Source of the DNA: Discostella pseudostelligera
Taxonomy: Eukaryota; Bacillariophyta; Thalassiosirophyceae; Thalassiosirales; Thalassiosiraceae
Length of the DNA: 16,560 nt
Assembly: GCA_036940085.1 (NCBI GenBank)
Contig: JALLBK010000581.1
Coordinates: forward strand, 1-16,560
Direction of reading: 5' to 3'
The notes below the pieces were generated by a model. It was given only the letters and a program-made list of their open reading frames with translations. It did not search any database and was not told the origin of the DNA. The stretch's first letter is position 1; the number at the start of each line of letters is the position of its first letter. The translations under genes and the position numbers were made by a program. This document shows, piece by piece, positions 1 to 16,068 of this stretch.

Positions 1-1578
1 TCCCGATCCACGGCCTTTCCATGTAGTGGGAATAATTATGTTGAGGGTGGTTGTGAAGGTTGTGGAATGATAAACAACGGTGCAGAAGGAGGAGAAGAAA
101 GTGAAGTGGATGATGATGGCGAATACATTGCTGCCAATAGCGTCTCCTACTTAGAGAAGGCATGCCAGAGGAATGCTGGAAAGCGAGGAACTCTCTCGTG
201 TGACTTTGGTGCATGTGTTCCATCCACCTCGGCCGTAGGACGTCGCCTCCAGGCTGAGCCAAAGCAGCCATCAAGCTCCACCAATGGTGACGGTAATGGG
301 AACAGAAGATTTCAATGTCGCATGACAGCATCGTATGCAGAGGGATCGATGTGGAGTGCGATCGAAGCATCTGATGTCGTATATCCCTTTGGTCTACCAC
401 CACCAGCTAACAATGACGTCAACGATGGTATTATTATGGATTTTCGGTTGAAATTCGGATGTCAGACTAAGGTGAGTATCGCCTCAATGATATCAGTTGC
501 GCATAATATTCTTCGGCCCATTCTTATCACGGTGCTATCATTCACAGGTCACAGGATTGTTCCAATATCAGCTTGAAGATGGAATATTGGGTATGGACCA
601 TCGTGATGGATCATTCTGGGATCAGCTTCGTGAGTACTACGTGAAGGAGAATCCCTTTGCGTCTGATGCCGGTGAAGCGAAGGATAATGCCAACGACGAC
701 ATCGAGCATGGACAATTCTTTGACCCGTCGCAATTCTCATTGTGCTATGGTCGGCAACCTCTCTTTTCGTCTCTACCCACTGCCACTGTCGGATCNTAAC
801 GTTGGGTGGAACGGACCACCTGCTCCATCGGACTCCCATGGTTTACGCAATGAATGTCACCCCCCAGGGAGGTTGGTATGCTGTTCGGATCAAGGCTATA
901 TTCTTGCGTGCAAACAACAACGATGATGTCAATACTAGTAATCAAGGCGACAATCGGCAGTACGTGCGAGTGCAGGAAAACGAAAATGCCCTGAATGGCA
1001 GTCCAGACGATGACAAGGGCGTGATCGTTGATTCAGGCACTACGGATACCTACCTCCCATTCGCTCTCGAGCATGCGTTCCAAGTTGCATGGGGACAAAT
1101 CTTGGGTGGAGCCGATGATGGAGAAGGTGTGAAGTACGACAATAATCCAAGGCACATGACACCTGAGGAAGTAAATGCGCTTCCGACCATCCTTGTGGTA
1201 CTGCGTGGCCATGAACCTTCGAACAGCAATGTCAAGAGCGGTGAGGCGTCAATCGGCATGGCAAGTTCGCACGCGGAAATGTTCACTCAGCCTGAACCGA
1301 ACGACAATAACAGCTCCAGTACTCTACCTCTCATCTCTGAAACCGATGTAGTTGTTGCGATACCACCAAGTCATTACATGGAGGAATCTATTGTACATCG
1401 CGGGCGGTTCGCGGCGCGATTCTACTTTGTTGAACGCGCCGGTGCTCAACCGATACTTGGTAGTAATTTCCTCATGGGTCATGACGTCCATTTCGATAAT
1501 GGCCAGGGCAACCGGATAGGATTCGCTGAGTCGGATTGCGATTATTCGAAGTACCTCGAGAAGAAAGATGCGGTTTGA
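1..1578 (+). CDS. Pepsin-like (A1 family) aspartyl protease, 5'-partial, frame broken at an N
   Basis: Endopeptidase of the pepsin family; the upstream end and first catalytic DTG-type motif lie outside the window. Model: exon <1-471, intron 472-547 (GTGAGT...ACAG, phase 0), exon 548-1578. The reading frame is open from base 1. Visible family features are Cys-rich FPC...CEGCG near base 20-65, a flap-like YAEGS segment (about 330-350), FGCQTK|VTGLFQYQLEDGILGM across the splice, FSLCYG (about 733-750), LGGTD after the N, the second catalytic DSGTT with its Asp at 1030-1032, and a C-terminal ILGSNFLMG...FD...RIGFAESDC block. Frame 2 is used up to 795 and frame 1 from 796, and TAA follows in the old frame; a single lost base beside the N would repair it as GSxTLGG. 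The protein ends without a membrane segment in the last exon. It is probably secretory or vacuolar by family, but the N-terminus is not seen. The stop is 58 bp from the stop of the convergent gene. Confidence 0.88.
796..796. other. Ambiguous base N at an apparent frameshift in the protease gene
   Basis: This is the only undetermined base in the window. The protease homology runs in one frame up to 795 and in another from 796. Treating the N as two bases restores an uninterrupted family motif (...GS-x-TLGGTD), whereas deleting it leads to the third, unrelated frame. It is best read as a sequencing or consensus error, not a true mutation. Confidence 0.75.
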
Positions 1579-1636: not shown

Positions 1637-4600
1637 CTACATAATTGCTACAACACAGACACCAATGTTGTCTGAACTTCCTCTCACGTAAGCCTCTTGT
1701 GCCAAAACTTCGGCTGCTTCCTGATATGCAGTACCGTTCTCATTTTGTTGTATCACTTGCCATGCCAGATCCACTGCTTCTTGGTTGTCGATTACATCCC
1801 AAAGGCCATCCGAAGCGAGAACAATAAAGCATGGTTTCATTGAAGATGCTTGTTTTGTTCCACAGTGCCCATGAAATTCCTTTTTTGTTAGGGCAATGAC
1901 ATGTGGAGTACGAGAGAGAACCGAAGCCAGCTTAATGTCACCCAGTGATCGAGAAACTGCGAGTCTTCCCATGACTCTATCAATACCACCTGATTCGGAT
2001 ACAAACCCTCCTCGTTCTAGAATTTGCTTTCGCTCCTCATCCGACGATGCAACATGATCTACGGTCAGCTGTATGGCATTAATGCGAGTGTCTCCGGTTT
2101 CATCAACCAACCACTGTGACATGACTGCACGAGAGTCTCCAACGTTTGCAATAATAACAGCAAGTTCCGTGACAAGCAAAATTGTTGCTGTTGTACCGCT
2201 TTCATCCATAATACCACCCGGAGAAGATGTCACTGCTTGGATGATGCCATGATGGAGGTCTTCAAACGATTGAGTGATTTTAGTTGAAATTTCATCTCGC
2301 CACGATGACCGAGAAGTCTGGTCACGTACTTGTGTATCGAGATCGGATAAACAGAGCTCAATCTTATGGTGAAACGAGGAAGACGCATATTTACTAGCAA
2401 GATTGCCGAGGTGGCCATCGAATATTCCGTAGAATTCATGAGAGGGATTCAAATGAACTGTATGGAAATCTTCTATTGATTTTCTGCAATGACACGGAAT
2501 GTGAGCTGCATACGAGAATCGACGCAAACATTTTTGTTTGTCTTACTTACCTTCGACCTTGAAGGTCACAATAGCCTGATGTTGGATGAGTCGGTAGCAT
2601 GGAATGAGCATTTAAGCATGGGGGCAAGAGACTTCGATCATAGGTACAAAATAGCGAGTGTCTACGTGATCTTGCATGGTGCTGACATGAATTGTGGTCA
2701 ATAAATTTCCTGCCACACTTTGGACAAATGAATTCGGTTACAATTGCTTCAGCTGACATGTCAATTCTTGGATCTAACGTTTGGTGCTCTAATGCATTCT
2801 GGAAGTCGGGGAGGGTAACAGGACTGGGATAGACACCATGCTGATAGCTTTGTGCTGTGAAATACGGGTGTTGAAGAGCTTCTGATGCCGACAGTCGTTC
2901 TAGTGGATTCCAGGCCAGTAGCCGCCACACCAGATGAAGTAGCGTGTTTGCGTCATCATCAAACCCTATACCAAGAGGGTCACGAGCTCGCAATGCATTG
3001 TGAAAATCCTGAGATGCAATTTGAGATTATGTTGAGCGAAGCAGAGCATAGCAGAGATCAAAGTTGTACAGCAATTCAATGCAATTGGCAATTGTCGCCA
3101 GCCATAGCAAAGTGAAGTGGAACCTTACCTTCAAAGTGCACTTTTGCTTCACAACATTGACGTCGTAAAGAGGATCTCCAAGCCTAAGTGGCCAGTTCAT
3201 CCCATCGAATTCAGTAGGGACATAAATGCAAAATTGCGACAGAGCCGCAAGAAATAATGCCCGTTGAACATCAAGGGAACTTGCTCCCACTTTTGTCAAC
3301 CTATTTGTCAATAGAGCCGTAGTTCGCTGATCCACGGAAAAAACATTCGGAGTGCCTAGCAGCAACTCTAGCGCCTGTAACAGTTAGAGTGAGAACAGCT
3401 TAGGCAATCAGCATCGGTAAGTGGGCATGGTATTTGAACTGAATGCAACTCACGACGACACCGATCGACCATGAATCGTAGCTGGTGGGGCGTTCAAGAT
3501 AGAAAGGGATCCAAGATGACTCTTGGAAAAGCACTTCCGGGCTATGGACAATGTGATTCAAATAAGAATCCATAGGCAGCGAGTATCAGGACACATGATT
3601 GATAAATGTTCATAAACTTACGGAGCATATTCATTTGTCTGTTCTTTCAACGAAGGACCGTTGACGTACAAGTTTCGAGATGAGAATTCGTCCCATGCGG
3701 ATGAAAAATCTCCGAGGAGACAACGGACTGAATCAATCTTTGTGGGGATGGATCCATCGGTAGTTGTAGGGGTTGTCTTGCACATGATATTTGACGGCTT
3801 GATGTCTCTGCATTTCAGGAGATGCAAATAAAGACTATCAGTGCTCTTTGAAACGAATCGCGAGCTGATATAACCATGCCACACGTTCCTACCCCACTTA
3901 CCGATGAACGATGCCTCGTTTGTGCAAAAACTCAACAGATGAAATCAATTGCTTAAGTACTTCTGAAATGATGGAATTATAATGCATGCGTCTTGGTATG
4001 GGATTGATCTAAGGGAAATAAGCATGCAGCAATGAATATGGAATACGAGCCTCACCTCGCAAAAGTTCTCGCCCTGCACGAGAAGCTCGTTCACTATACC
4101 GATTTTGATTCGGTTGAAATATCACCAACGATTCATCATCCTGATGACGTCCACCCGCAATACCCCATCGCAGCTTCCTCCAAAATGCCGAGTGTTGAAA
4201 CACCAAGTAACCACCAGTATCGACGGGAGTGTACAAGAATGAGCGTAAAGACGATCCGGCATTTTCGAACACTATCCACAGCTCGACTTGCCCACGATGG
4301 CCTTCTCGAAAGAAGTGATCGACGTAGGAGGTAAACAAACCCGACGATTCGACTTCTCGAGCGAGGAGCTCACCAAAATAGATCTCCCGTAACCCTGCTT
4401 CTAATACCGGGTAGCCATATTCTATTTTCAATCGCTTCACAATCAAATCTCGATCAGCGTCGCAGGAGGAGGAAGAGGATGCTGTTGAACTTTCATTAAT
4501 GGAGCCAATGTACTCGTCACTTGCTCCTCTCAGGATAATTGGACAACGACGTCGCGCCCTCCATATTTCACCATGAGATCCTCCCGCAAATGGACGCTTC

Positions 4601-6063
4601 CCATCTTCTTCGTATATGTTACTCTGGTACGGTAGTGGTGTCCGGTGGTTGAGATCGGAACTGCTACCCAGGAGACCATTATTGCCATCGACATTGACCA
4701 TGGTGTGGCTCCCGCTGCCTCTGTGCAATAGCTGTGCAATATGGGTCACCCATGAAAACCATCGGTAGGAAACCTGTTGATCGCCGCTACCACTACCGCC
4801 ACCGAGGCCATACCAAGACGATTGCTTATTCACTGTTTGCAATTCACGACTGTCGTTGTTACTACCAGTATCATCATTCTTTGCGCTGGAAGTCCACTCG
4901 CCTTGAGTAATCGTAAGTGCCACGGGTTGATATGCAAAATCGTGTCTGTGCACGTCGACAATACCCAATTCTAACGGCTCTCGTCCTATCAATGCATATT
5001 GTACCACCCGTGTGTCATGATCATATTGTTGTCCCATATCTTGGAGACATTGACTCGTCAAGTTGTCATCCTCGCCTTCTACCTCCGCCTTCGCCTCCTC
5101 CTCTATCGTATCCTCGTAGTCATTATCGGTCTCCGTCGAAGATTCCAGTGATGAAGTGATGAAGCCTTCACGATGAGTTGGTGGTGTATCATCAAGACCA
5201 TTCGCCCCGACTCCTACTGCTCCACTATCCTCCTCTCGTGGGAACACATACACCACCATACCGGGTTGCACATCATCGTCCGACAGTTCATTTTCGATCA
5301 TTGCATTACTGCCATTGCTTCTACCCTCCCCAAAAATGTCATTGGATGATACTTCCAGTGGAGGAGGGTGATAAGGTATCGTCAAGGATTTGTCTATAAT
5401 ACCATCGATCTCTCCTGCATTGCTAATAACTATGTTGTCGTCTGCGTCCAACAACTCGGGAGGGCACCATGCACCAACCCATCTCTCCCGTCGATGATAC
5501 TGATTTGGATAATTATGAAGTTCCCTATCATCCGCCACCTTCGCCTCTGTACGTTCTTCCAACCCCTCTCCCTCATGCGATATCACTTCATCTCCGTCAT
5601 TAACCATCTGTGTCTGTTGCAAGACTTGATAGTTGCCGTTCTTCTTGAACGACAACCACGGTAGATTAAGTGGCAGCTGCAGTTGTACAAATGGCAACCG
5701 TCTTGATATTTCAGAAGCAATTGCACGAGAGAATCTTTCCACGACCGTTGGGAAATTAGTATTGTCATATTTGACGGAATGAATCTCGTTCTCCATCGCA
5801 TGATGAACATTATGATGTTGTAATGTATCAATATCGACATCATTGTCGTCTTTCCAAAATTTATCATCGTCGACTTCTAACAATTCTTGATGATCTATTA
5901 TTTTTTGTTCATTATCAAAATCCAACTCATCATTCACTGTAGCTGCAGCTTCCAATGGTGAATCGACGGCGGCGGCGGCGGCGGCGGAGGCAACAGCATA
6001 AGTATCACATAAAATCGATGCGATTAGTAGTAGTAGTAACATCGAAACGAAAACATGCAACAT
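1637..6063 (-). CDS. Signal peptide - protein kinase - C2H2 zinc finger - PP2C phosphatase fusion
   Basis: Predicted dual-activity enzyme of about 1297 residues: Ser/Thr-type kinase plus metal-dependent PP2C phosphatase. Exons on the minus strand: 6063-4056, 3962-3902, 3807-3622, 3541-3454, 3374-3129, 3008-2551, 2483-1637; all six introns are GT-AG and keep frame. The ATG at 6063-6061 is the first in frame, with an upstream stop at 6093-6091. Residues 1-26 form a hydrophobic signal peptide, and 30-485 are acidic and low in complexity. Kinase (about 490-915): glycine loop near 494-499, Lys543, Glu560, HRDIKPSN with Asp691 and Asn696, DFS instead of DFG (Asp723), PPE for APE (752-754), YDSWSIG. 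Zinc finger C-X2-C-X12-H-X5-H at 958-980. PP2C (about 1007-1297): GRRKSIEDF, DGH at 1038-1040, GDSRAV, ASDGLWD with Asp1241, SSDN with Asp1287; the metal-binding Asp residues are present. The activation-segment pattern (GP..EQT.EYAPPE) resembles plant kinase/PP2C proteins as I remember them. No second membrane segment is seen. Confidence 0.9.
5967..5987. repeat. (CGG)n trinucleotide run encoding poly-alanine
   Basis: Seven CGG units on the plus strand lie inside the kinase-PP2C gene and encode the alanine run just after the signal peptide hydrophobic core (about residues 25-33). The run sits at the predicted signal-peptidase region, so length variation would change the spacer and not the catalytic domains. 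Confidence 0.8.
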
Positions 6064-6432
6064 GATGATCAATGGTGGGATGCAATGGGATCATGTTGGT
6101 AATGAATGGATATAGCTAGGTAGTCGGTTGGAAGGAAATTCTGGCGGCATGCGACCAGTTTCGGATTTCATGGTTCATCGTCGTCGTCGTGGTCGTCGTC
6201 GTCGCTAGTCGTCGCTGTCAGACACCGTCGACGGACAGAAAGTCAAGGAGTCGCCGGTGTGATGGACAGACTATGGAGTTTCAGTTGGCAGAAAATCTTG
6301 GCGGGAACGCTGACACAGCGAATCTTCATGCTTCAGGCCGGCAGCCATCACTACTTCATTCATGGTGCCTCTCGTTCCAGTTCCTTCATTTCTTCATCAG
6401 CCTACATTAAGTTCATCAATTATTGCATCATC
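6064..6432. promoter_or_regulatory. Divergent intergenic region between the kinase-PP2C gene and the pentapeptide gene
   Basis: These 369 bp separate two outward-facing start codons, so both core promoters and both 5' leaders must lie here or overlap the genes. It contains a degenerate TCG/GTC microsatellite (6176-6216) and an E2F-like TTGGCGGGAA at 6298-6307. A frame open from 6259 runs in phase into the pentapeptide gene, but using an ATG there would bury that protein's signal peptide. No convincing TATA box was seen. Confidence 0.55.
6176..6216. repeat. Degenerate TCG/GTC microsatellite
   Basis: A trinucleotide run of TCG units is interrupted by GG and CTA; it lies between two divergent start codons and is probably non-coding leader or promoter sequence. 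Confidence 0.75.
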
Positions 6433-7330
6433 ATGGTCCGACGATTCCCCCCTCTTGTTGGCATTGCATGCCTCTACCAATCTTTGTGCGTGACGGCTTT
6501 TGTCTCGCCGGGAAATGGGTTGTCTCGTCGATATTCCTCGGCAAGAACGGCGACGGCGTCAAACGGCGATAGTTCCCATCACCATCATCATGTTGTCGCC
6601 AACACACAATCTTTCGCCACCGCCGCCATCCTATCCATCAGCGTACTGTGCAGTAGCATCCTTACTCCACTCCCTGCACTAGCTTCTATAGCAAGTGGTG
6701 CCGACGCCGGAGCTTCCATTGCATCCAACTCGAAAATAACTACGGGAGGTGCATCGACTCTTCAAAGTGGAAGGACCATTGCGATTACACGTGGTGTCAA
6801 TCTCGATAACTCAAATTTTGCCGGAGCCAATTTGAAGGGAGTGGCATTTCAACAAAGTATTGTACGGGATGCAGATTTTAGTGGTTCTAATTTGGTTGGC
6901 GCATCTTTCTTTGACGCAACCGTTGATGGAAGTAATTTTGAGGGTGCTGGTGAGTACTATTGGGGATTGGGACGAGTTGTGCTACATGTGATTTTGTTTT
7001 TGCATTTCTTTGTGCATAAGATTGATCAATTCAGCCCTTATTATCTCATCGATGCTCTTGGTTGTTTCCAAAAAAAAATAAGATATGTCACTATGCAATG
7101 TCGAAATGGCCCAATTCAATCGAGCCAACTTAAAGAATGCCGTCTTGCGTGAAATGTATGTCTCGGGCTCGACTCTCTTCGAGGGTGTTAAATCAATTGA
7201 GAACTCAGATTGGTCTGAGACACAACTACGGAAAGATCAAACAAAGTATTTGTGCAATCATCCGACGGCCAAGGGGACGAATCCGGTGACTGGGGTGGAT
7301 ACTCGTGAAAGTTTGATGTGTCCGGATTAA
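6433..7330 (+). CDS. Thylakoid-lumen pentapeptide-repeat protein
   Basis: A 254-residue protein encoded by exons 6433-6949 and 7083-7330, with intron 6950-7082 (phase 1). The pentapeptide fold is a right-handed beta-helix; plant lumenal relatives exist but their biochemical role is unclear, so none is asserted. The ATG at 6433 is chosen because it gives a signal peptide followed by VTA|F (residues 20-23), an ASAF-type diatom plastid-import motif. A second hydrophobic stretch (about 61-80) ends in ALA at 82-84, as expected for a thylakoid transit signal, so the mature protein would start near residue 85. Repeats of the A(D/N)LXX type follow, for example NFAGANLKG, DFSGSNLVGASF, and across the splice NFEGADMSLCNVEMAQFNRANLKNA. 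The C-terminus is a non-repeat tail with two Cys (CNH, CPD). A natural five-His run is at 49-53. Earlier in-frame ATGs (6259, 6328) would destroy the signal peptide. Confidence 0.87.
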
Positions 7331-7410: not shown

Positions 7411-9678
7411 TCATAATCTTAGGTAATACCATTTATTCCTTCTCTTCTTCAGTCTCCTGCCACTGTCGGTCCGAAGGGCACGCTTCCTTATGTTCGTAGA
7501 CATCCTTCGTAATTCTTCCATGACGATCCCCCTTGTCAATTTTCTTCCCGGTCTCGTTTTCATAACATCCCAAATCACTCGTCGTTGTGATAAACCCGTT
7601 ATCGATGCTGAATCTTTCAATAGTCGTCGAATTTTTTGTCGGTCAATTATCATTTTGCCATTCTCCGATGGCGAACGAATCAGAGTTTGCACTGTTCTAT
7701 CAACTACCGGGCTACGCGTCGGATTGCGAAGCAATCTATTTAACGCATATGGATACATGACCGTAAGAACATTGAATGTCGGATCTAACGATTTGGCAAT
7801 ACCCTCGAGTGTGCTTAATGCCCTTGCATTGTTAATGAAGTAGGGTGGTAAATCGAACTGGAACCGTGGAACGAGGCGCGATAATGAATCGAGGAGTTTG
7901 TCGAATTTGAGCTCGGGTATTGCGGTATTTCGTGCACTTCCTCCTTCTTCTTTTCCAGAGGATATGTTCTCGATGACGGGATACAATAATGCATTGTCAA
8001 AGGTAGCACGCAGCGCATCAGCCAATGCCGCCCTCTCGTTCTCATCATCCAGGACATGCTGCGGAATCAAATGCAATTCACCAAACAGGGATGCTACGGC
8101 GTAGGCATCTCGTTCAAACACCTGCAATGCCACCGCACAGACTAATGCATCACGGACACGTTCGGGAATTGTCGATAATAAGCCAAAGTCGAGATAGCCA
8201 AGGGAAACCTCTGCAGAATTATTGTCTTCGTTTCGGCGTAGTATCTTAAGCAGATTGCCTGCGTGGGGGTCCGCTTTTTAGGTTCGAGACAATAACAACA
8301 CAGCGGAGTAAACAATCAGAGACACTTGAACGTCGTGAAATGGTCTTCAAAAATAAAATAATGAAGACTCGACCTCACCATGTAATGTTCCAGTAACAAG
8401 TAGCTGGTGCAATGTGCAATCGATGGCAACTTTGACCAATGCTAAATTCTCTTTCCTTGTTGCATCGTCGTCACCGTTGCCGTTGTTATTTCCCGAATCA
8501 TCATCACCATTAACGACTTCACGTCGTCGAACATTGGTCAGTTTTGTCCCATCAATCCATTCCATAACCAATACATTCTCGGTACACCAATCGAGATATA
8601 CTTCTGGAACGACGACACGGGGTATTGTTGTGTTCTTCTTTCTCTTCGGCGATGATATGTTCCTGCTACTGCTGCCCCCTTCGGAATACAAATTGGCAAA
8701 GGTGACAATATTGTTCGCTTCATTACGATAATCCAACTCCTCAAGTATACGCGACTTGAATTCGCGTACTGCAGGGACCAACTGCGTATTAATGAGACGT
8801 TGTGTAGGTTTGGACCTGGATGGCAATGGTATTGTCGACGAACTTGGATTTGACGATGATGGTGGAAAGGAAATCGCAGGGATGGAATCCAGAAATTCAG
8901 CTATGGCAAGTAACATTTTCGAATCCTGTTCCACTACTTGTCGCACCCCGGGACGTTGGACCTTCACTGCCACACGGATGGGTGGTTGTCCCGATTGAGT
9001 ACTAGGTAAGTACGCCTCATACACTTGTCCAATCGATGCCGCAGCCACGGGGAGTTCAGAGAAGCTCGACACCAATGCTTTAATATCCTCCTTGGAATGA
9101 TGTGATGCCATCAATTCTTTTGTTACAATATCTCTAGCTTCCACCGATCTAAAAGGTTCCATATCATCCTGCAATGATGACAATGCCATGGAGAGGGATG
9201 GAGGTACGACATCTGGACGTGAACCAAGGGCTTGACCAAATTTGACATACGTCGGGCCAAGTAATTCAAGAGCATTGGCAAACCGAGCTGCGTGGGAAAT
9301 AACTGCGTGCTTTGATGATGCTGATGAGGATGCAGCAGGGGTGGTGGTCGCCCAGAATGTGTCCCACCCTCCATCGTCATAGTCGCCAGGACGAAATGCC
9401 GAGAACAATGTCGAAAGCAGTATCGGTGCAACAACCTTTCCTCCTAAGATTATACCAATTTCAGATGCCCGTCGGACTGCAGCAGGGTACATGGAGGAGA
9501 CGTCGCCTTCTCCATGATGATCGAGTTGATCAGTAATTCTAGTGCTGGTGGAAGTACTGGTACTGGACTTGTCAGACGATGACAAAGGCGCACTTTGGCT
9601 GTAGGCAGCGACAGGGTCAACGAATGGCACGACGACGCTGCATAGCACTAGCAGTGTCTCCCTCGGCATAACTCTCAT
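7411..9678 (-). CDS. ABC1 (UbiB/ADCK) family atypical kinase, probably plastid-targeted
   Basis: A 720-residue protein encoded by exons 9678-8379 and 8273-7411, with intron 8274-8378 (phase 1). ABC1 kinases are atypical protein-kinase-like proteins linked to quinone and, in plastids, prenyl-lipid metabolism; the substrate here is unknown. Family motifs in order: KFGQ at 146-149 followed by LGSRPDVVPP, the Ala-rich loop PVAAASIGQ (210-218) that replaces the glycine loop, VAVK with Lys239, EELDYRNEAN (313-322), LVMEWIDG (370-377), HADPHAGN joined exactly across the splice (433-440), and YLDFG with Asp462. The C-terminal extension of about 250 residues ends in a very basic tail. The N-terminus is hydrophobic (about 8-24) and is followed by VAAY, a non-canonical ASAF-like site with Tyr at +1, so plastid targeting is likely but less secure than for the neighbours. 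Low-complexity Ser/Thr and Asp/Asn inserts lie at 33-48 and 390-407. The stop is 80 bp from that of the convergent pentapeptide gene. Confidence 0.9.
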
Positions 9679-10260: not shown

Positions 10261-11333
10261 ATGGCAGACGCAATGGACCCTCAGCAATTCGACAGTAACA
10301 TTCGCCGACCAATCTCCATCGTTTCGCTGAGTGGTTCGGATAGTTCGTTGGATGGACTGATGGAGGAAAAGGCCAAGCTTGGTGAGTACTACTTTGTTCT
10401 TTGAGCGATGATGGTTCGATCATGGCTTTCCAACTTTATGCTCTACCCGACGATTGAACGTCTTTCCTACAATTTTACCATACCCTATTCCACCCATCTA
10501 CATCACCGTCCTGCTTGCTGTTACACCCGCAGAAAAGTTATCCTTCAAGTCCATGTCATCTCCTCCTCCACCTCACCGCCGCCAGGATAAACCAACTGCA
10601 ACCACAAATAATACCACTGTCCGTCTCAACAAATTCGTTCGACGACTACACGAAATGTTATCATGCGAACAAGGTCGGGGTGTCGTCGAATGGAGACGTG
10701 GAGTACTAGTGTTGCACTCGATCAATACCATCTTTGCCAAAGAGACACTACCAAAGTATTTTGGTACACGAAACTTCAAGACCTTTCGAAGGCAATTAAA
10801 TTACTACGGTGAGATATGGTTTGTAGAATTGTTTTGTTCTGACAATACATGGAGGAACTCATTTTCTGTGTATTGTTCTCAATTTCTTGCTATGATTGAA
10901 TTAAGGTTTCCTACATGTTCGATCTTTTTGCGCTTCTGGTTCGGCATCTACGGCACTATGGGTCAACCAAGAACTAGCCGATGGCGATTCTGACTCCGTC
11001 TCCAGCGTACTAACGCTGAAACGAGTCGAATCTAATAGCAATGATTCCAGCAAAACACATGAGGCAAGACGAGAGAGGAGGTTTGAAGCTGCAACTTCAC
11101 TTGAGGTGGAGAAGCTAGTTGCCGGGTACAATTGTGATAGGAAAGATAACGGAGTGGCAATCGCTTGTGATATACCTAATATTGTCCATTGTCAACAACA
11201 GGGCCTTGGCAAGGCACATGATGCACTACCGGTGGCTTCGTGCATACCAGAAGACAAATATTGTCCACAGCATTGGAATGACCCATTCATTGCTGCTGGA
11301 CTTCTCCTCTCATTAGCTGATGCTGCGGCGTAA
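10261..11333 (+). CDS. Heat shock factor (HSF) family transcription factor
   Basis: A 274-residue protein encoded by exons 10261-10381, 10533-10808 and 10906-11333, with introns 10382-10532 and 10809-10905 (both phase 1, GT-AG). HSFs bind promoter DNA through a winged helix-turn-helix domain; diatoms have greatly expanded this family. The DNA-binding domain spans about 70-165: RLNKFVRRLHEML, VVEWRRGVLVLHS, F108 to F117 (FAKETLPKYF), and the recognition helix region NFKTFRRQLNYYGF (121-134), completed exactly at the second splice junction. It continues as LHVRSF...TALWVNQELA and VLTLKRVE. Residues 1-69 are Ser/Pro/Gln-rich and apparently disordered. After the domain I see no heptad-repeat HR-A/B coiled coil; the 110-residue tail has six Cys and a hydrophobic end (AAGLLLSLADAAA). 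The nuclear role is inferred from the family. It could be a non-heat-responsive HSF paralogue. Confidence 0.9.
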
Positions 11334-14928: not shown

Positions 14929-16068
14929 ATGATTATTTCTACAATGGAGAAAGCGATCTCGAGACTCTTCTCGCTTCGCTGCCCAATTCTTATTATTGCG
15001 TGGATTATCGTCGCGTTAACATCGTGCCACATTCATACTACTTTTGACGCTAGGGTGCTAGCATCGAGAGGAACATTAGATAATACTTCACATCTCCTCG
15101 TTGATAATGAGATATACGAGGCGGAGTTCCTTCCCATGCCATCATCATCCGAATCGGAGATAGTAGAAACTGATGCATCGTCACAAGCTCGTTTCATGGC
15201 CACAACATCAGCATACAATAACAAGGTATCATATCCTGTACAACGAGGAGCACCGTTATCATTATCCATCGTGCGCTCTATCGATGAATCATCTCTACCT
15301 TACCAATGTGGCATCCTCTTCTTCTACCATATTGCATGCACCGGTGGAGCATCTATAAATCGATGGCTGGGTAAATTAAAGAAGATGAATCCCAATGTTA
15401 GCTACTACACCCATTGGGGAAGGAAAGGTGCTGCGGTCGAACGCAGCTTCATCCGGGGTATGGAGGATCAGGTACACAACATCGGCCCAAATGAATGGAG
15501 AATCGTACATGCTCATGGTCATAGTCTATATCTCAACGAGAGCGAGGCATACTTGTATCAATGGAGAGAACAAGTCGAAGGTCAGGGATGCAACTTTGTC
15601 GTCGCCACCATGCTCCGTGAAGCGGTGGGACACACCATCAGTCAAACCAAGGGTATGATCACTCCTGGGCTTACATTGGATGAATTTCTACATCATCTCG
15701 AACCAGAGAACTATAATCAACATGGACGTTTCAATACTCAATTGGATTACATCTTGTACAATAGTCTAACACGGAATCCATACCATGTTTCGAAAGAAGA
15801 AAGAGTCCGACGCGGTATTGAATTACTGACAAGACATTTTGATATTGTACTTGTTGGTGATCATGATCGATTTTACGAGATTATATTAAAAGTTACCGGT
15901 TGGGTTGGTGTAGAAATAGGACATAGCAACTCTTTCAATGGTGAATTGCACTTTAGTGAAAGAGAATTGTACAAAATACAACGATTGACGGAGGAGAATG
16001 GAGATGTGCAGTTTTTGGATGCAGTGAAGCATGTGTATTATGGGCATCTTGATTACTTGTTGGCGTGA
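14929..16068 (+). CDS. Type II membrane, sulfotransferase-like protein
   Basis: A single-exon, 379-residue protein. Residues 18-35 (PILIIAWIIVALTS region) form one hydrophobic segment after a short basic N-terminus, as in Golgi type II enzymes; a Ser-rich acidic stem follows (about 50-120). The catalytic-type domain starts at CGILFFYHIACTGGASINRWL (127-147), which aligns with the PAPS 5'-phosphosulfate loop of carbohydrate sulfotransferases. ATMLREAVGHTISQTKG (226-242) looks like the 3'-phosphate-binding Arg/Ser segment (Arg230, Ser238). Such enzymes transfer sulfate from PAPS to glycans; the acceptor here cannot be told. The lysine usual in the 5' loop (PKTGG) is absent: the sequence is ACTGG. 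Possible N-glycosylation sites include NTS and NES. The ATG at 14929 is used because it precedes the membrane segment. A second in-frame ATG at residue 6 would also preserve the anchor. Activity is uncertain. Confidence 0.75.
   Translation: MIISTMEKAISRLFSLRCPILIIAWIIVALTSCHIHTTFDARVLASRGTLDNTSHLLVDNEIYEAEFLPMPSSSESEIVETDASSQARFMATTSAYNNKVSYPVQRGAPLSLSIVRSIDESSLPYQCGILFFYHIACTGGASINRWLGKLKKMNPNVSYYTHWGRKGAAVERSFIRGMEDQVHNIGPNEWRIVHAHGHSLYLNESEAYLYQWREQVEGQGCNFVVATMLREAVGHTISQTKGMITPGLTLDEFLHHLEPENYNQHGRFNTQLDYILYNSLTRNPYHVSKEERVRRGIELLTRHFDIVLVGDHDRFYEIILKVTGWVGVEIGHSNSFNGELHFSERELYKIQRLTEENGDVQFLDAVKHVYYGHLDYLLA

Follow-up and report, generated by a model that had tools for sequence, protein, structure and literature searches.

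Proteins that carry a protein kinase and a PP2C phosphatase on one chain have been described in plants and in Phytophthora. The PP2Cs AT2G40860, Os01g36080 and Os11g37540 carry a kinase domain (PMC2612031), and PP2C-cyclic-nucleotide-binding-kinase proteins occur in plants and Phytophthora (PITG_08304, PITG_09375; PMC3019232). Five STKc-PPMs are reported from Phytophthora sojae (PMC10925823). In a review of bifunctional kinases the Arabidopsis entries are removed (PMC9138534), and a further paper concerns a different fusion (PMC5924475). Here we describe a predicted gene of the diatom Discostella pseudostelligera that joins a kinase, a C2H2-type finger and a PP2C domain. It occupies positions 1637..6063 on the minus strand of a stretch of 16,560 nucleotides (GenBank assembly GCA_036940085.1, contig JALLBK010000581.1), referred to below as the window. 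The kinase-finger-PP2C family to which it belongs is named KZP here. No description of a kinase-C2H2-PP2C protein was found in the accessible parts of the open-access literature searched, nor was this exact order, which a previous sequence-only reading of the window had allowed might be a standard family, encountered there. Kinase-PP2C fusions are known already, and the arrangement is therefore rated as a new variation on them.

The seven-exon, in-frame splice model of the sequence-only reading was reproduced. Six GT...AG introns of 67-120 nucleotides separate exons encoding 1297 residues and a stop codon, with a signal/anchor-like N-terminus and a variable region preceding the kinase, the finger and the PP2C. 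All exons lie on the minus strand. Exon 1 (4056..6063, residues 1-669) encodes the hydrophobic N-terminus, an acidic variable region and the kinase N-lobe. Exon 2 (3902..3962, residues 670-689 and part of codon 690) ends at the HR of the HRD motif, and exon 3 (3622..3807, residues 690-751) holds the catalytic loop (D691, N696), the DFS motif (D723-S725) and the beginning of the EYAPPE segment. The PPE of the APE region and helix F (DSWSIG) are found in exon 4 (3454..3541, residues 752-781), and helices of the kinase C-lobe in exon 5 (3129..3374, residues 782-863). Exon 6 (2551..3008, residues 864-1015) completes the kinase (RDPLGIGF, LERLSASEALQHPYF) and goes on through the finger to the first strand of the PP2C (CDLQGRR). 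The remaining PP2C, with its metal-site motifs (E1020/D1021, D1038-G1039, D1241, D1287-N1288), and the stop codon are in exon 7 (1637..2483, residues 1016-1297).

The junction between kinase, finger and PP2C lies inside a single open exon (3008-2551), and the ED motif opens the next one. Because exon 6 alone holds the kinase end, the finger and the first PP2C strand, the junction is independent of splicing, and a separate PP2C gene would miss its start. The exon model in the window was inferred from the letters of the DNA alone, which could favour a misjoining of two adjacent genes, but all parts are also present by profile in the eight of eight transcriptome-derived homologues checked (P0005, P0010 from Odontella aurita, P0012, P0020 from Extubocellulus, P0034, P0035, P0068 and P0113). 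Both observations run counter to the separate PP2C transcript that the sequence-only reading had kept in mind; we regard a misjoined gene pair as extremely improbable and reject it. Exon 6 and these homologues support the predicted kinase, finger and PP2C of the D. pseudostelligera gene as one chain.

The homologue search used an 835-residue query, of which 812 residues, 463-1274 of the model, were scored. Among 7990 scored candidates, 520 proteins reached the threshold of E <= 1e-3, the best with 72% identity over 98% of the query. The closest named matches were from Stephanodiscus triporus (72%), Detonula (71%) and Cyclostephanos tholiformis (70%). Family counts below rest on the 120 listed of the 520 matches plus the query (121 rows). 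All listed matches with an organism name are from diatoms, and many diatom genera are named. Profile scans of whole proteins recovered the order kinase-finger-PP2C in 119 of 121 rows; the other two (P0112, P0116) stop after the finger, and PP2C preceded the kinase in none of the 121. Because these rows themselves supplied the profiles, weak matches are picked up more readily. A motif-based count, in which the PP2C motif was sought only after the finger, gave 84 of 121 rows with kinase-finger-PP2C, 30 with finger-PP2C, 4 with kinase-finger, 2 with finger and 1 with kinase-PP2C. It misses partial domains, and the profile count is preferred. The member from Seminavis robusta (P0026) carries the database name 'linked kinase-associated serine/threonine phosphatase 2C', possibly transferred from another phosphatase.

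A length-restricted search (about 1100-3500 amino acids) scoring the kinase alone returned 54 proteins, 42 previously listed and 12 new. Eight of the new ones (P0243-P0250) contain kinase, finger and PP2C in the same order by profile, and in the kinase tree as well as the PP2C tree they fall outside the diatom clade. Since only the kinase was scored, the finger and PP2C of these proteins were not selected for. Of the remaining four, P0242 from the liverwort Riccia and P0251, which is rich in Ala/Gly, carry the PP2C in front of the kinase and gave no match to the finger. P0241 is a partial diatom row, and P0252, which has only a kinase (E 7.7e-4), is not counted as a family member. With 520 relatives at the search threshold and 72% identity for the best, the conservation of the kinase-finger-PP2C family is far beyond chance. 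The suggestion of a lineage-specific architecture holds in that the order differs from that of plants and a finger is present, but the architecture is not confined to one species: it is found in the listed diatoms and in eight sequences outside the diatom clade.

The kinase matches Pkinase (PF00069) at residues 659-913 (E 2.9e-21, 76.5 bits against a curated cut-off of 31.7), from profile position 91 onwards. The N-lobe is present despite this partial match, with a glycine-rich loop (492-501), Lys543 and the helix-C Glu560, and the predicted structure of homologue P0003 also shows an N-lobe. In the covering rows of the 121-row alignment K543 is conserved in 84/85, E560 in 84/84, the HRD aspartate D691 in 95/95 and the DFG aspartate D723 in 109/111; Asn696 of the catalytic loop is kept almost without exception, and Arg901 of RDPLGIGF is found in 121/121. 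The glycine of DFG is absent, the third residue being Ser (723-725, DFS), as in 109/110 rows. The full kinase domain that had been proposed is thus borne out by the Pfam match, the N-lobe and the catalytic residues, with the qualifications that Pfam by itself covers only profile positions 91-263 and that the third DFG residue is Ser. We class it as CMGC-like, a Ser/Thr kinase within the At3g63330/At3g63340 family.

A candidate zinc-binding C2H2 finger links the kinase to the PP2C (2646..2726, minus strand, residues 958-984). It has the form C958-X2-C961-X12-H974-X5-H980, with C971 and C984 also conserved, and all six residues are aligned in 121/121 rows. P0005 is an exception in spacing, having CX1C instead of CX2C, with one residue fewer between the first two cysteines. 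The zf-C2H2_2 match is subthreshold (14.7 bits against a cut-off of 26.9). In the model of P0003 the finger folds as beta-beta-alpha (strands 561-562 and 569-570, helix 573-582), with blocks of predicted local distance difference test scores of 94-96. The proposed CX2CX12HX5H finger therefore has conserved ligands and a modelled fold in its favour, but falls below the Pfam cut-off. C971 and C984, additional to the four C2H2 ligands, are also kept in the eight sequences that fall outside the diatoms; when these eight are aligned with six diatom sequences, none of the six Cys/His positions varies.

The PP2C domain is complete, as had been claimed: PF00481 matches residues 1009-1289 (E 4e-43, 148 bits against a cut-off of 20.3) over profile positions 5-255 of 255, and the metal-site motifs are present. 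E1020/D1021 are conserved in 119/119, D1038 in 118/118, D1241 in 108/114 and D1287 in 104/106 covering rows. We take the ED, DGH, DG and DN motifs to form the metal site by analogy with other PP2Cs. Near-invariance of these residues and of K543, E560, D691 and D723 in the kinase agrees with the claim that both enzymes retain key residues. Fold-search lists were dominated by PP2C matches. Clade A plant PP2Cs (HAB1, ABI1/2, OsPP2C06) are the nearest solved PP2Cs by sequence and among the top matches by fold, and they are likewise the nearest solved relatives by sequence of the PP2C of P0010. They are stand-alone phosphatases of abscisic acid signalling, unlike the fusion PP2C.

Kinases of plant proteins named 'probable protein phosphatase 2C 51' (PP2C51) or 'probable inactive protein kinase At3g63330' resemble that of KZP. 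A plant-type kinase fragment served as bait and found 336 proteins; the 120 listed are all from land plants where an organism is named, and include Arabidopsis P0176 (1041 amino acids). The activation segment is alike, as had been noted before, with the common motif GPS..EQT.(E/D)Y.PPE, and the C-lobe motif RDPL..GF is also shared. Like KZP, the PP2C51 proteins have a PP2C on the same chain as a kinase of this family. They differ in that the PP2C is N-terminal to the kinase, and in having DFG in 117/120 plants where KZP has DFS. PP2C precedes the kinase in 116/120 listed plants by profile (105/120 by motif), four having a kinase only; P0176, for example, has its PP2C at about 70-446 and its kinase at about 605-1036. 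The PP2C-first order given for this group by the sequence-only reading was correct. Diatom profiles for the finger and the N-terminal region found no match in the 120 listed plants. The diatom kinase profile scores up to 248 bits on plants and the diatom PP2C profile up to 117, whereas with the kinase profile none of 30 further kinase loci in the diatom genome, examined as single open frames (the best of 143 Pkinase matches in 23.0 Mb and 963 contigs), exceeds 59 bits. In a tree of 22 family rows and the 23 of these 30 kinases that passed a length filter, with outgroup kinases only from this genome, KZP and the plant family are separated from the genome kinases with support 100/100, and the kinase-first proteins group with 98/95. 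Profile and tree both assign the KZP kinase to the plant At3g63330/At3g63340 (PP2C51) group. Rice OsPP2C76/Os11g37540 is, from its size of 1116 amino acids and its kinase domain, probably a PP2C51-type protein (PMC2612031). No functional study of plant PP2C51 or algal KZP proteins was found in the literature searched.

Other kinds of kinase-PP2C fusion are known. At2g40860 and Os01g36080 have the kinase first, as in KZP. They combine kinase and PP2C in 658 amino acids, about half the length of KZP (PMC2612031). The PP2C-cyclic-nucleotide-binding-kinase proteins and the P. sojae STKc-PPMs share with KZP the presence of both enzyme folds on one chain (PMC3019232, PMC10925823). The former differ in having cyclic-nucleotide-binding domains; in addition, the kinase of those from P. 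infestans is inactive (PMC3019232). No cyclic-nucleotide-binding domain is among the nine Pfam families matching the 1297-residue model up to E 1, which rules out that type of fusion.

Opposite domain orders around the same kinase raise the question whether a PP2C was fused once or twice. With the diatom PP2C profile, HAB1, ABI2 and OsPP2C06 score 140-149 bits and land-plant fusion PP2Cs 92-115, so that the latter do not surpass the highest-scoring unrelated PP2C in the diatom's own genome (115); the kinase profile, by contrast, gives plants up to 248 bits against 59 for the best of the other kinase loci. The plant PP2C profile scores 125 bits on PPM1K, 121-124 on clade A and 36-101 on KZP PP2Cs. 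In profile searches of the PDB, clade A is nearest to the KZP PP2C (168 bits; PPM1K 117) and PPM1K nearest to the plant PP2C, with a small lead (129 bits; clade A 122). That the PP2Cs of the two families are not mutual best matches suggests two separate gains of a PP2C by the same kinase, one at either end. In the free PP2C trees, too, the plant PP2C groups with human PPM1K, represented by a partial row, and apart from KZP (support 96/89 and 96/90); the long-branch rows own_L009, own_L011, own_L013, own_L014 and green_P0251 were kept in the first tree and removed before the second. A single ancestral kinase-PP2C fusion, permuted afterwards in one lineage, would explain why both lineages join a PP2C to the same kinase, mostly with a hydrophobic N-terminus, and approximately unbiased tests do not reject a joint KZP and plant PP2C clade (p 0.117, 0.173 and 0.144, the second from the run without the partial PPM1K row). 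Given the profile scores and free trees, we nevertheless consider a single fusion on the unlikely side. As the tests reject nothing, separate PP2C origins remain a preference. We lean, tentatively and with slightly less than even confidence, towards two independent fusions, PP2C-kinase in the green lineage and kinase-finger-PP2C in diatoms and relatives, with the N-terminal signal or anchor kept both times, which would make a convergent single-chain phosphorylation switch at the membrane or secretory pathway.

As to function, and going beyond the architecture, conservation and catalytic residues shown above, we think it fairly probable that the protein is a single-chain kinase-phosphatase of the conserved KZP family, working as a writer and an eraser tethered to each other. 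Kinase and PP2C would be kept in the same place by the finger module and the N-terminal anchor or signal, and between them would determine how far a common client, or their own chain, is phosphorylated. A change in metal, ATP or bound partner could flip the balance between them. One chain may thus add and remove phosphate, as the sequence-only reading had put forward. The protein may be membrane-bound or secretory: 19-residue windows starting at residues 1-14 score at least 1.5 on the Kyte-Doolittle scale. A hydrophobic N-terminus is likewise present in five of six green-lineage rows checked. The hydrophobic segment of the diatom protein is followed by AVASA/AAAA, without an aromatic residue; a plastid-targeting reading after the ASAFAP motif was considered as a possible alternative. 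Several points weigh against the tethered writer and eraser. The substrate shared by kinase and PP2C is hypothetical; DFS in place of DFG and an altered first glycine of the G-loop could reduce kinase activity; the finger gave no match in the partial diatom row P0241, which has kinase and PP2C; the hydrophobicity threshold is missed by 20 of 66 long diatom rows; and a signal peptide would send a kinase that uses ATP, together with a finger rich in Cys, into the secretory lumen, awkward for a zinc finger.

Alternatively, the kinase could be weakly active or a pseudokinase whose main role is to present clients to the PP2C, as proposed for Phytophthora and plant PP2C-cyclic-nucleotide-binding-kinase proteins, where an inactive kinase-like domain may help to bind phosphatase substrates (PMC3019232). 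The near-universal Ser of DFS and the database name 'probable inactive protein kinase At3g63330' of plant relatives P0154 and P0209 are consistent with this, but Lys543, Glu560, Asp691, Asn696 and Asp723 are near-invariant, unlike in usual pseudokinases, and most plant kinases of the family retain DFG. Haspin, with DYT, is active, and we find a pseudokinase rather improbable. The PP2C could alternatively act in cis only, dephosphorylating the kinase's own chain as an autoregulatory brake with no shared external client. Tethering on a single chain favours action in cis, and clade A PP2Cs, the nearest solved relatives of the PP2C of P0010, inhibit SnRK2 kinases via direct docking; nothing in the analysis separates cis from trans action, and we judge an exclusively cis role unlikely, if a little less so than a pseudokinase.

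The gene is flanked by a plus-strand gene at window positions 1-1578, with an aspartyl-protease-like DSGT motif by eye, that converges with it and ends 58 bases before its stop codon; 724-1575 has no Pfam match, and a single N at 796 lies inside the open frame. On the other side, Pfam identifies a pentapeptide-repeat protein (6427-7330, plus strand), an ABC1-type atypical kinase (7411-9672, minus), an HSF-type DNA-binding domain (10559-10990, plus) and a cytochrome P450 (11923-14200, minus), and an open frame of 376 amino acids at 14938-16065 has no Pfam match at E 1e-3. Elsewhere in the genome, locus L013 (contig G000:C63, 3000-6500) may be a second gene joining a kinase to a PP2C. It has a Pkinase match at 5965-6243 on the minus strand (32.6 bits), with DFG and APE by eye, and, downstream on the same strand, a PP2C match at 4033-4611 (67.7 bits) that is far from KZP in the tree; two other stretches of L013 have no Pfam match.

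A kinase and a phosphatase that share one chain and both keep their catalytic residues offer a natural case for studying how opposing enzymes are held together in cells. The finding is of moderate interest, which would be higher if two independent fusions were established. This kinase would then work only with an eraser on the same chain, and if a PP2C was recruited to it twice, the pairing itself would be under selection, and the plant PP2C51 and algal KZP proteins could inform each other.

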